A stretch of DNA of 64,000 nucleotides, from contig NZ_JABBPN010000006.1 in NCBI RefSeq assembly GCF_012933385.1, positions 62,001 to 126,000 on the forward strand. The letters run 5' to 3'. The position numbers were made by a program, and so were the translations under genes. This DNA comes from Paenibacillus lemnae (GTDB taxonomy: Bacteria; Bacillota; Bacilli; Paenibacillales; Paenibacillaceae). Positions 41,722 to 45,352 of this stretch are shown in pieces (position 1 is the first letter of the stretch; each line of letters starts with the position of its first letter). The notes under the pieces were generated by a model. The model did no database searches, was not told the DNA's origin, and was given only the letters and a program-made list of their open reading frames with translations.

Positions 41722-42645
41722 TCATAGAATTGATGGAAGCTGAATATGCAGCCTCTCCACGGCTTCCACTTTTTCTTTGTTAGTTACATGCGTATACACC
41801 GTCGTCGTCTGGATGGAGGAATGACCCAGCAATTCCTGAACCGTTCTTAGATCAGCTCCTTTTCGAAGCAGCATGGTCGCAAATGAATGTCTGAGCTTAT
41901 GACTTGAATAAGACAAGCGCTGCTGTGCCGGTATGTCCTGCTGGAAACGATCAAACGTATCGGCAGCGATCTGCTGTATGCAGCGAATGGATAATCTGCG
42001 CCCTTTTTGCGATGTAAACATGGCGTCTTCTTTGACTCTTCTCGGCTGCAGACGATCTTCTATAGCCGTTTCAAGCATGACAGCAACAGCTTCTGGTACG
42101 GGAAGTGTGCGCCATTTCCGGCCTTTTCCGAACACACTGAGCGACCGGTGCGAGGCATGGTAATCCGATAAGTTGAGGGCATGAACCTCGCCAATACGTA
42201 ATCCCATGTATGCCATCAGCAGGAATACAGCAATATTCCGTTTCCGATACTTTCCTGGTACCAGTTCAAAGAAACGGATTAACTCTTCCTCATTTAAAAA
42301 GGTAGGCGCTTTGTTATGATCTGTTTTGGATTTCTTCACCCCGGCGGCTGGGTTCGTCACCGCCATCTCCAGTTCCATCAGAGCCTTGAACAAACACGTC
42401 ACAGCTGCGTGCTTCCGGTTTCGAGAAGCATCACTGATCCCCCGTTCTCTTACAGAAGACAAGTAGGACATCACATGAATTTTTTTGACCTGAGGAATGG
42501 TTTTACCGTTCAAGGAAACAAGAAATTCAAGAACATCGCCGGTATACGATTTTATAGTATGACCTGTATACCCCGCATCTTTCATCCAGATCCGAAAGGC
42601 TTCCAGCTCATCTTCGTAAATGTCTTTGACGTCATCATTCAACAT
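41722..42645 (-). CDS. Tyrosine site-specific recombinase, XerC/D-like
   Basis: The 307-residue protein has an N-terminal SAM-like DNA-binding domain and all catalytic residues: Arg in MGLRIGEV, Lys in GKGRKWR, HKLRHSF, His in [10 protein letters not shown] and the nucleophile Tyr in VYTHV. The length equals that of chromosomal XerC/XerD, but no phage or island genes flank it. It may be a house-keeping paralogue or a relic of an integrated element; a 370-base AT-rich gap follows its start. Confidence 0.85.
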
Positions 42646-42935
42646 GATCCTCCCCCTTAAAGTGCCGGATTATATTTTAACATACTGCATGTTGATTGGA
42701 ATGTAATTATAGTAGAGAAAAAAGAAGTCGATTAATGTGATATAGTGTCGTACCTGTTATATTATAATGGCTTAAAATTAAAACAGCGTATAATTTATGT
42801 TATACGCATATTTTTGTTGACATAAATGCAGTGTTTTTTTGATTAATTCTAGATTGTGAAAGCAATGATAAATGCCCTCTGCTGACGGCATTAACGAAGA
42901 TATTACCTCTAAAGGATAAGTTTTACAAATAAGTA
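42646..42935. other. AT-rich intergenic stretch with one hairpin
   Basis: No gene is supported. The hairpin GCGTATAA / TTATACGC at 42786-42807 is followed by ATATTTTTG on the plus strand. Nothing upstream on that strand seems to need a terminator. Confidence 0.4.
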
Positions 42936-42964
42936 TTGATCTATTTAACAAAATAGGATATTTT
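42936..42964 (+). promoter_or_regulatory. Promoter of the rsgA-aph leader
   Basis: TTGATC (42936-42941) and TATTTT (42959-42964) are 17 bases apart. The transcript would begin near 42971, leaving a leader of about 300 bases before the rsgA-type gene. Confidence 0.5.
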
Positions 42965-43015
42965 AGAAACAGCTTAGCGATAAGCAAGTTCCTGACACGA
43001 AGGGAGATGTTTTCT

Positions 43016-43054
43016 ATGGCAGCTATATATATTTATAAGGTGGTTCAGTCTTAA
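43016..43054 (+). CDS. Candidate 12-residue leader peptide
   Basis: ATG 43016 has GGGAG nine bases upstream and encodes MAAIYIYKVVQS, then TAA. Downstream lie a pairing stem and two terminators before the rsgA-type gene. This is the layout of ribosome-mediated attenuators of antibiotic-resistance and ribosome-rescue genes, in which a stalled ribosome on the leader changes the folding. It is a prediction; a 12-codon frame alone is weak. Confidence 0.45.
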   Translation: MAAIYIYKVVQS

Positions 43055-43067
43055 AACAGAATAGCAG

Positions 43068-43114
43068 GCATATCAGGAGTCGACGGGTATAAGCCCGTAT
43101 TATTTGGTATGTCA
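43068..43114 (+). promoter_or_regulatory. Leader stem between the leader peptide and the terminators
   Basis: GGCATATC can pair with GGTATGTC along all eight positions (two G-U pairs). It encloses a small CGGG/CCCG hairpin. It could alternate with the downstream terminators. Confidence 0.35.
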
Positions 43115-43150
43115 TCCACAGTAACCTTTCGTGAATATTGCTGTTTGCAG

Positions 43151-43176
43151 GATACGATGAAGGTCGTATCTTTTTT
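43151..43176 (+). terminator. Leader terminator 1
   Basis: GATACGA, loop TGAAGG, TCGTATC and then T6: a textbook intrinsic terminator inside the leader, about 95 bases before the rsgA-type start. Confidence 0.75.
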
Positions 43177-43184
43177 GCGTCCTG

Positions 43185-43231
43185 ATGCCGCGACAGCAGC
43201 TTCTTTAGAGGCTGCTTGTTTGCGGCATTTT
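43185..43231 (+). terminator. Leader terminator 2
   Basis: ATGCCGC pairs with GCGGCAT and CAGCAGC with GCTGCTTG inside it, followed by TTTTT. It is nine bases after the first terminator's T-run. Confidence 0.7.
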
Positions 43232-43271
43232 TGCGTCCAAAAAACAACATTAAAGGAGCTAACAATAACCC

Positions 43272-44357
43272 ATGATGAAATTAGAAACCTATGGTTATAC
43301 AGAAACAGAACCACCTCCTTCCGGACTACTGCCCGGCAGAGTGACAGAGCTTCGGCGTGAACGCTTCACAGTCATGACCGAGTGCGGCGAAGTAACAGCG
43401 GTACTCAAAGGAGCATTTTATCACAATGCTGAGATGCGTGCAGACTTTCCATGTGTCGGTGATTTTGTCTTGCTGCGTTTTAATGAGAGCGGGGATTCAC
43501 TCATCGTTACGCTGCTCCCCCGCCGCTCCAAATTCTCACGATCCGATTACTCTGGGCATGGTGCAGGTTATGTTAAAACCGTGCTGGAACAGGTCGTTGC
43601 AGCCAATTTTGATTATGTATTTATCCTTTCTTCTCTCAACAACGATTTCAACTTTTCCCGCATCATGCGGTACCTTACACAAGCCAGGCAGAGCGGTGGT
43701 CAGCCGGTCGTCATTTTGACCAAGGCGGATATCGCGCCAAATTATAGCCTTTCGCTCGCAGAAATCACACAAAGCATTCCTGATGTGCCAGTTCACGCGA
43801 TTTCCAGTCACACAGGCCTGGGGAAGAACGAATTGGATCCATACTTGAAGCCTGGTAAAACAATCGTATTTCTAGGCATGTCCGGAGTCGGTAAATCATC
43901 TCTGCTCAATGTGTTAATGGAACAGGAAGTAATGAAGGTCCAGGAGATCCGGAAGGTCGACAGCCGGGGTCGTCATACGACAACGCACCGTCAGCTGTTC
44001 ATGCTCCTGTCTGGAGCAATGGTCATCGATACGCCAGGCATGCGAGAGCTTGGGCTTTTTGATGCCGATGAAGGAATCCGCGCAGGCTTTACCGATGTGG
44101 AGCAAAGGTTCTCACAATGCCGGTTTAATGATTGCCGTCATCAGTCCGAGCCAGACTGTGCCATTCTCACTGCGATTGAGGACGGTTCACTGAAGCGAGA
44201 ACGATGGAATCAGTATATTTCCCAGCAGCAGGAGAACAGCTTTGTCCAGGATAAATCGAGCTACTTGATTAATAAGAGATCCCGAAACAACACGACCGCT
44301 TTGTCGAACAGAGAAACGAAAAAAAAGGAGACTCGAAAAAATGAATATAAAACGTGA
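43272..44357 (+). CDS. rsgA: RsgA-type ribosome-associated GTPase, paralogue
   Basis: The 361-residue protein has an N-terminal OB fold (about 18-85), a circularly permuted GTPase with G4 (LTKAD, about 150) before G1 (GMSGVGKSS from Gly202) and G3 (DTPGMREL), and a zinc finger with Cys283, Cys288, His290 and Cys296 spaced 5-2-6 as in E. coli YjeQ. RsgA checks 30S subunit maturation. The lysine- and asparagine-rich tail after residue 325 is extra. It sits behind an attenuator-like leader and overlaps an APH-like gene by 17 bases, so I take it for an accessory copy, not the house-keeping one. Confidence 0.85.
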   Translation: MMKLETYGYTETEPPPSGLLPGRVTELRRERFTVMTECGEVTAVLKGAFYHNAEMRADFPCVGDFVLLRFNESGDSLIVTLLPRRSKFSRSDYSGHGAGYVKTVLEQVVAANFDYVFILSSLNNDFNFSRIMRYLTQARQSGGQPVVILTKADIAPNYSLSLAEITQSIPDVPVHAISSHTGLGKNELDPYLKPGKTIVFLGMSGVGKSSLLNVLMEQEVMKVQEIRKVDSRGRHTTTHRQLFMLLSGAMVIDTPGMRELGLFDADEGIRAGFTDVEQRFSQCRFNDCRHQSEPDCAILTAIEDGSLKRERWNQYISQQQENSFVQDKSSYLINKRSRNNTTALSNRETKKKETRKNEYKT

Positions 44358-45352
44358 AGCGTTATTCTCTGCATTAAGCCAACAATTCAAAACGAATATT
44401 ATCTCCGCCGATTACCAAACGAAGACCTTACAAGGCGGAACGGTGGGAAACGTGTTTCTGGTAACGGGGGCCGCCGAAACGGCAGATGGAAAAATCCTAC
44501 CGTATCGTAGTGAAAACTCAAAAGAAATGGGAGCGATACGCAGATCCGGAATCATGGCGTCGGGAATATGATCTGTACGCCTCTGACTTGGGAACGACGT
44601 TCTCGGATGCCTTCCGCTGGCCGATATGTTACCACTCCGAGATGAATGAGGAAGAAGATAAATACGAGCTGTGGCTGGAATATATCGATGGTGTTAATAG
44701 TTCGGACTTGTCCAGCGATATGATTGAACAAGCCGCGCTGGAGTTAGGACGCTATCAAGGCAAGCTGTATGTGGAGAAACCTGCTGTGCTGCAGCGCCTA
44801 ACCAATCTGAGTCATTCGGTTTTCATGAAGAATACATATCTTCATTACCGGTCATGGCCGCTCGTTTACGATTATATCCGCTCTGAGGAATGCGCATTCC
44901 CGCAGCACATCAGGCAGATGCTAATTGATATTGATGAGCACTCGGACGAGATCTTTGCCCGCATCGAAAAGCTGCCTCTAGTGTTATGACACCGCGATTT
45001 CTTGGTGACCAATCTCATTTATGCCGATGGGAAGATTGTGCTCATCGATTGGGATACATGCGGATGGGGCTGGCTGGGTGAGGATCTCGCAAGCCTGATT
45101 GCGGATGAAGCGGATATTGATCACATGGTCGAATACTATGAGCAATGTGTCCCGGCGTATTATAAAGGCTTTTCAGAGTATGCGGATGTCTCCCCTGTCG
45201 CGGATCATTGTGTCCATGAGCTGATTCTTCTCATATTCGGGTACAGACTTGTGGAGGGATATCTTCACTCAGATGACAATGACGAGAAGGCGAAGCATTT
45301 CCAAACGCTGCAACAAATCTATGAAATGAAAAAAAGTACTGCGAAGATGTGA
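44341..45352 (+). pseudogene. Aminoglycoside phosphotransferase-like (APH) gene, frameshifted and with an internal TGA
   Basis: The start ATG 44341 has AAAGGAG upstream and encodes MNIKREALFSALSQQF to VTGAAETADGK. At the A5 run 44490-44494 the frame shifts by one; with four A residues it would continue SYRIVVKTQKKWERY. In the second frame homology runs to LPLVL, then TGA at 44987-44989, then HRDFLVTNLIYADGKIVLID. The last block is the Brenner motif HxDxxxxN and the IDWD metal site of APH kinases. The intact product would be about 336 residues. TGA replaces the position that is often Cys or another small residue before HRD. Two lesions argue for a decayed gene, but a sequencing error in the A run is possible. 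Confidence 0.8.

Follow-up and report, generated by a model that had tools for sequence, protein, structure and literature searches.

Why should a gene lie behind two consecutive intrinsic terminators that face its own start? The gene in question encodes an RsgA-type GTPase in a stretch of 64,000 nucleotides from Paenibacillus lemnae (assembly GCF_012933385.1, contig NZ_JABBPN010000006.1, positions 62,001 to 126,000 of the forward strand), hereafter the window, in which 42936-43272 on the plus strand comprises a promoter, a 12-codon frame led by a Shine-Dalgarno (SD) sequence, two stems (S1 and S2) and two tandem intrinsic terminators (T1 and T2) upstream of this rsgA paralogue (Table 1). An earlier note on this DNA had described a frame with a ribosome site, a pairing stem and two consecutive terminators in front of an rsgA-type gene. 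All of these parts were located in the sequence, and the 341-nt leader folds to −106.2 kcal/mol as compared with −80.4 ± 5.6 kcal/mol for shuffled sequences (z −4.6; 0 of 100 shuffles as good). In addition, the two strands of 42400-44600 hold 7 terminator-like sites, as compared with 2.0 ± 1.5 in shuffles. We propose, with a probability of about 0.72, that the region is a ribosome-mediated transcription attenuator which keeps an operon of the RsgA paralogue and an APH-fold kinase off until ribosomes stall on the leader frame. Attenuator-type control of the rsgA-type gene, as the earlier note had suggested, is well supported by conservation and by synteny.

Conservation of the leader

From 80 relative loci and 30 matching genome loci, 108 loci with at least 420 nt of upstream sequence were obtained, and 82 of them (76 after duplicate removal) carry, at 15 or more of its 19 positions, the 19-nt element that forms the 3′ arm of S2. 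The leaders were compared in an alignment (A1) of 62 distinct leaders of 65 references, three of which (L032, L046 and L067) were excluded as too distant; the window is included, and the named rows belong to Paenibacillus, Bacillus, Neobacillus and Saccharibacillus. A short SD-led open reading frame (ORF) between promoter and gene is present in 62 of the 62 leaders, followed in the window by T1 and T2 between this ORF and the gene, as is characteristic of attenuators of this class. The frame has 10 codons in 50 leaders, 11 in 4, 12 in 6 and 13 in 2, with length differences of whole codons, and it starts with ATG in 48, TTG in 12 and GTG in 2. The peptide ends in V-[V/I]-x-x-stop in 61 leaders (the exception is L100), and the spacing from the stop to S1 is 12 nt in 53. 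The loop of S1 varies in both length and sequence, and the 19-nt element is nearly invariant. When loci that match the element at 17 or more positions are counted without removal of duplicates (127 loci), the most frequent peptides are MATTYMVVWS (20), MATTYMVVSV (11) and MTAYMVLVVLT (9), and no leader frame was recognised in 14.

One explanation of such a region is that the terminators end upstream transcription, that the short ORF arose by chance and that nothing is controlled. Intergenic terminators are common, and 63 of 322 other ORFs (mechanically called, at least 180 aa, from the same loci) have one within 300 nt upstream. However, a terminator-like hairpin combined with an SD-led short ORF within that distance precedes 78 of the 108 rsgA-like loci as against 19 of those 322 ORFs, and the frame, the stems and the tandem terminators are kept together across genera, which makes this explanation scarcely credible.

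The predicted pairings are likewise kept. For S1, S2, T1 and T2 together, 95.0% of the cells of A1 are paired, whereas control structures in which the partners were slid reach only 31-45%. Changes on both sides occur at 12 pairs and in 26 cells, as compared with 5.3 and 8.1 in shuffled alignments (0 of 500 as high), counts that are uncorrected for the relatedness of the leaders. S2 is paired in 98.4% of the cells of A1, where its variation is one-sided only. A second alignment (A3) holds 20 diverse leaders of 33 references, 8 of them shared with A1, those omitted being mostly leaders with long S1 loops. Compensatory exchanges of C-G to A-U and of A-U to U-A are found in S2 among these diverse leaders, and the covariation score of S1 and S2 is 0.190 as compared with 0.131 after shuffling (0 of 500 as high). 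The alignment across relatives that the earlier note had called for thus finds both the leader frame and the stems conserved, the frame in all 62 leaders but at 10 to 13 codons rather than a fixed 12, and the covariation above that of shuffles.

A strong conserved structure with a nearly invariant 19-nt element could also belong to a riboswitch-type attenuator that binds a ligand or a protein, the short frame being incidental. We regard this as improbable, since the frame accompanies every leader of A1 with its SD, its stop and its codon-sized indels, and since the S1 loop, a possible site for a binding pocket, varies in length and sequence. Nor does the window match any of 4227 Rfam families at the gathering score, and 15 other rsgA-paralogue regions gave no Rfam match at E 0.1. 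Still less probable is an amino-acid-supply attenuator of the trp or ilv kind, in which Val-Val would sense charged tRNA-Val. Two adjacent valine codons do stand near the leader end in 61 of the 62 leaders; however, two would be the only control codons, some diverged leaders have Ala or Ile in place of the second, and the downstream genes are not biosynthetic.

Diverged versions of the leader occur in other Bacillota, and distant leaders, including clostridial ones, keep V-[V/A/I] near the stop (e.g., MSVIMVVAT, MLAFRMVVFD and MAIVFEVAFV). Two spirochaetal loci have the frames MIVRMVAFF and MTAIVVVLG, but without the 19-nt element. A minimal leader is found at 2380-2500 of L179 (Acetoanaerobium noterae), where MKKFTNNLVVFV is followed by a single terminator-like hairpin and the rsgA-like gene is 56% identical.

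The genes behind the leader

The 94 distinct leader loci form a tally that is biased to rsgA, most loci having been fetched via the rsgA protein and 20 (L142-L161) hand-picked from a list of pattern matches. In this tally, 64 loci have an rsgA-like gene and a kinase gene, 4 have the same arrangement with the kinase cut by the end of the locus, 1 has rsgA at the locus end, 8 have rsgA without a kinase, 10 have a kinase and an rsgA remnant, and 7 have a kinase without rsgA. The remnants lie between leader and kinase (L112, L122, L130, L133, L134, L142, L143, L148, L155 and L159). Because the 10 remnant loci and the 7 loci without rsgA retain the kinase, rsgA has been lost by internal deletion, and recurrently so, with leader and kinase kept. 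Before the tally, 16 loci were excluded for lack of the leader signature, and some true leaders were missed in this way (e.g., L153, L158 and L177). The link between an attenuator on an rsgA-type gene and an APH-like gene, which the earlier note had drawn from one genome, is well supported by conservation and synteny: 64 of 94 loci carry both genes, and the kinase is kept where rsgA is deleted.

Three further sets of loci, which share genomes with one another, were collected by the leader and are less biased. In 398 Bacilli genomes, a covariance model alone found 13 leaders, one per genome with a match, and all 13 precede an rsgA-like gene, a kinase gene or both; the filters were strict, and weak leaders were missed. 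Among the first 30 loci found by a sequence pattern, the 20 that bear the signature all precede an rsgA-like gene and/or a kinase, and the 10 without it are mostly chance matches. In the phylum-wide set, 2 of 3 leader loci do so, the third being L184, where a methyltransferase-like gene follows. The pattern itself, at up to 2 mismatches, occurs in 102 of 295 Paenibacillaceae genomes, a count that includes chance matches, as the reversed control pattern also matches some, and in 3 of 398 genomes of the phylum. Otherwise the leader is rare. As judged by comparison of genomes, a conserved leader of the translated type with tandem terminators is tied to a module of rsgA paralogue and kinase.

The product of the window gene belongs to the RsgA family (161 bits to TIGR00157, cut-off 100). 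It has the permuted order G4-G1-G2-G3, the DTPG motif and a zinc knuckle, every G motif searched for being present. An HflXr-type identity was rejected, as the product is of the RsgA family and the RLR motif is not present in the leader peptides listed. The window protein is 33% identical to the other RsgA of the genome (G000:C22), and the relative in L003 is 29% identical to the housekeeping copy. The housekeeping rsgA immediately follows a frame that by eye is of PASTA type, and the window gene is not its orthologue. The likely ATG of the housekeeping copy stands 17 nt past the stop of the preceding frame, so that no leader fits before it. Among 100 genomes of the same genus, 96 have an rsgA-type match at E 1e-40, most of them to another paralogue, which is about 42% identical. 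Members of the window gene's clade (one long match, at least 70% identity) occur in 29 of the 100 among the matches listed, the own genome included, with fragmented copies in G009, G073 and G096.

The kinase frame is uninterrupted in relatives, where the protein matches Pfam APH and has the HxDxxxxN and DxD motifs; in 11 of the 12 relatives listed these take the form of HRD[F/Y]Wxx(x)N-type and DWD motifs. The predicted structure has an APH fold (pLDDT 89.7), with best structural matches to corramycin phosphotransferase (Z 20.7, rmsd 3.2, 284 aligned), APH(2″)-IIIa (19.6, 3.7, 282) and the N-acetylhexosamine 1-kinase NahK (19.1, 4.0, 305), which do not settle the substrate. Sequence matches to named antibiotic kinases (Mph, AmiN, APH(2″), corramycin phosphotransferase) are only weak. 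An amicoumacin kinase is among the Foldseek matches, but not among the 50 VIA matches listed, and a literature search for the amicoumacin, AmiN or YerI kinase found no paper.

The identity of these genes bears on a further explanation, namely that the leader senses general translation capacity (shortage of 30S subunits or of initiation, cold, starvation) and that the RsgA paralogue answers by faster 30S maturation. The SD is itself a candidate switch strand, RsgA is a 30S maturation factor, and loss of cpgA in Bacillus is reported to raise sensitivity to chloramphenicol and linezolid modestly (PMC12445079). However, the partner gene encodes an APH-fold small-molecule kinase, which is retained even where rsgA is deleted, genes of GNAT, methyltransferase and ABC-F type stand downstream in other taxa, and the end of the leader peptide is conserved, which a pure sensor of SD occupancy would not need. 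We therefore consider this explanation unlikely, if the least unlikely of the alternatives.

The products encoded downstream of the rsgA-like gene in those other taxa include GNAT, methyltransferase, RNHCP and ABC-F-type proteins. The RNHCP-domain gene (PF12647 in L056; L049, L070 and L039 in the same cluster) lies downstream of rsgA-like genes in clostridial metagenome assemblies.

Proposed mechanism

The 19-nt element has three complementary partners, namely the SD strand (pairing S2), the 5′ arm of T1 with its loop (pairing AT1) and the 5′ arm of T2 (pairing AT2); of the cells of A1, 96.1% permit AT1 and 96.6% permit AT2. In the ribosome-mediated attenuator that we propose, the operon would be held off until ribosomes stick on the leader frame. 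When nothing stalls, the SD strand would pair with the element, with the SD region 42996-43004 opposite 43125-43133, and T1 and T2 would form and end transcription. If an inhibitor arrests ribosomes within the 12-codon frame, or makes them pile up at its start, the SD strand would stay occupied. In the course of transcription the freed element could then capture 43153-43163, the 5′ arm plus loop of T1, and after that 43192-43199, the 5′ arm of T2, and RNA polymerase would read through. In computed folds that end before the 3′ arm of T1, S2 dominates in the free RNA (p 0.57); with SD and start masked and the 3′ arm of T1 not yet made, AT1 becomes the main partner of the element (p 0.36-0.40, as compared with 0.15 in the free RNA).

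Several observations weigh against this reading, and some concern the switch itself. The antiterminator pairings AT1 and AT2 show no covariation. Once the 3′ arm of T1 is present, the T1 hairpin prevails at equilibrium whichever mask is applied (mean p 0.98-0.99), which rules out its displacement at equilibrium, so that AT1 could act only kinetically, as in other attenuators. AT2 forms about equally with the SD free (p 0.54) or masked (p 0.48), and SD occupancy is thus not obviously what switches it; the T2 half of the antiterminator is the least secure part of the model. Masking for one ribosome at the Val-Val codons has little effect on S2 (0.88 as compared with 0.91 with T1 complete, and 0.51 as compared with 0.58 before), suggesting that a ribosome queue or an early stall is needed. 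We favour an arrangement of two ribosomes, the first of them stalled close to the end of the frame and the second held at its start; if the frame has 10 codons and the stop occupies the A site, their P sites would be 27 nt apart.

Other observations of this kind concern the loci. A clade of leaders (L022, L098, L106, L109, L143 and L144) keeps the T1 hairpin but has lost its U-tract (UUUAGG and similar), as if the hairpin served another use, and L139 has no T2. At 1370-2100 of L184, which scores below the element threshold and stands outside the 94 loci, a leader of the same type (MTIVEVAFV) precedes a methyltransferase-like gene (by eye) without rsgA. The kinase frame is broken in P. lemnae itself, where only the last piece of the gene matches Pfam APH. 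Unless the breaks are assembly errors, the operon here probably yields the RsgA-type protein and no kinase. To these points comes the rsgA bias of the 94-locus tally described above.

Weighing both sides, we consider ribosome-mediated attenuation of the module likely. By inference, the signal would be the stalling of ribosomes, the element would serve as antiterminator, an antibiotic would be the inducer, and the operon would confer resistance or tolerance. Drug induction of the operon is plausible, and the APH-fold partner is suggestive of resistance. The leader peptides ErmAL1 and ErmCL come from short frames and have neighbouring aliphatic residues where the ribosome stalls; they act mostly by translational attenuation of a methyltransferase. 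A leader with Val-Val near its stop recalls these macrolide-sensing peptides as much as it suggests the sensing of a drug that acts on the 30S subunit.

Comparison with known systems

The nearest precedent that we found for a ribosome-associated GTPase paralogue under an attenuator is hflXr behind Rli80 in Listeria monocytogenes, a paralogue of a housekeeping GTPase (PMC6310831). There, too, a short frame (14 aa) precedes the gene; it spans an anti-antiterminator region, and stalling relieves premature termination, which is the scheme proposed here. In contrast, the present system has an RsgA paralogue, no RLR motif, two tandem terminators, another peptide and another RNA, and an APH-fold kinase in the operon. 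Attenuators on ribosome-acting genes, namely hflXr and lmo0919 of Listeria, have earlier pointed to unknown resistance factors (PMC6310831). The ARE-ABCF attenuators of vmlR, vmlR2, cplR and lsaA likewise combine an upstream ORF with transcription attenuation, and the repressed form of cplR sequesters its upstream ORF and an SD (PMC10201436). The consensuses given there for the upstream ORFs are MIN, MK[L/Q], MR[I/M] and MAGN, whereas the frames described here have 10-13 codons and encode peptides with a conserved C-terminus, and the target belongs to a family other than ABC-F.

A WblC-activated RsgA paralogue is described in Streptomyces coelicolor, where the RsgA/EngC paralogues SCO6149 and SCO5211 are among the pairs with one WblC-activated copy (PMC7157823). 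By the order of the pair in that paper the activated copy is SCO6149, whose mRNA is raised on tetracycline. In that case a transcription-factor regulon (WblC/WhiB7) controls the paralogue, and not a leader of its own as here. By analogy with this WblC-activated copy, the '30S-protection module' of the earlier note is a plausible description.

No report of an attenuator on an rsgA gene was found in the open-access literature searched, and the sequence of the leader peptide was not seen in the literature found. The leader resembles an on-switch triggered by antibiotics, placed before a type of gene for which the literature searched gave no report of such a switch. Searches of plasmids gave no match to the leader DNA, and rsgA-like matches there have less than 60% identity only. 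Viral contigs hold 0 exact matches of the 19-nt element, and PADLOC returned none.

The attenuator marks a GTPase family of 30S maturation and a family of APH-fold kinases, and the leader would be a ready reporter for the inhibitor recognised by the operon, and hence for the targets of both the RsgA paralogue and the kinase. A wider reading, which we hold tentatively and at slightly less than even odds, is that RsgA paralogues may form a class of ribosome factors that has gone unrecognised, induced by antibiotics and equivalent on the 30S side to HflXr, silenced by leader-peptide attenuators of their own (at least two kinds in Paenibacillus) and teamed with drug-modifying enzymes. The present leader would then be a dedicated sensor of one natural class of inhibitors that reads a nascent peptide ending in Val-[Val/Ala/Ile]-x-x-stop.

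A second rsgA paralogue of Paenibacillus

The widespread paralogue of about 42% identity has a different leader-peptide and tandem-terminator region (L163-L175 and L198-L217). In its 33 upstream regions, an SD-led frame of the MTVYT..VVDTCLPGTAAA type was found in 18 and one of the ..H[R/S]xKKV.. type in 3. At least one strong terminator-like hairpin precedes the start in 33 of the 33 regions and at least two in 32, counts that have no background control and may include hairpins that end upstream genes. The leader SD, CGGAAGGAGA, is complementary to TCTTCCGG within the frame (by eye). Both paralogues thus have an SD-led leader frame and tandem terminators before the gene, whereas the leader peptide, the RNA sequence and the terminators differ.

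Layout of the locus

Table 1. Features of the leader and of the genes behind it, in positions of the window
Feature	Position	Strand	Basis
Leader promoter TTGATC-17-TATTTT	42936..42964	+	sequence; recurrent distance to SD motif
5′ strand GCAAGT + CACGAAGGG, candidate anti-antiterminator containing the leader SD; helix S2 with 43125-43143	42984..43004	+	paired cells, compensatory changes
Leader-frame SD AAGGGAGAT	43000..43008	+	sequence; conserved
12-codon leader ORF MAAIYIYKVVQS, ATG 43016, TAA 43052-43054	43016..43054	+	sequence; frame kept in relatives
Stem S1, GGCATAT/GTATGTC around CGGG/CCCG (43067-43073 with 43107-43113), 12 nt 3′ of leader stop	43067..43113	+	covarying pairs
19-nt element CCTTTCGTGAATATTGCTG; forms the 3′ arm of S2 and may act as antiterminator at both T1 and T2	43125..43143	+	conservation, pairing
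Intrinsic terminator T1, GATACGA/TCGTATC + U6	43151..43176	+	sequence, terminator scan, alignment
Intrinsic terminator T2, + U5; 20-pair stem in relative L003	43185..43232	+	terminator scan; both-side changes at 7 lower-helix pairs
Ribosome-binding site of the rsgA-like gene, AAAGGAG	43252..43258	+	sequence; conserved
RsgA-type circularly permuted GTPase paralogue, 361 aa	43272..44357	+	Pfam RsgA_GTPase 1.8e-46; TIGR00157; motifs
APH-fold kinase gene, interrupted in this genome (three ORFs)	44341..45352	+	frame change near 44500, in-frame stop near 44988

The promoter before the leader had been called good in the earlier note; a promoter is present, but it is weak, agreeing with the consensus at 8 of 12 positions, and is not among the sites given by the promoter scan. 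Its position recurs among relatives: 70 were scored, and in 18 of the 45 listed, the window included, the best promoter site lies exactly 33 nt 5′ of the leader SD motif. Four diverged relatives have TTGACA-17-TATACT at 30-32 nt, and the best site lies elsewhere in the remaining relatives listed. The upstream neighbour of the leader is a tyrosine recombinase gene on the opposite strand, at 41722-42645.

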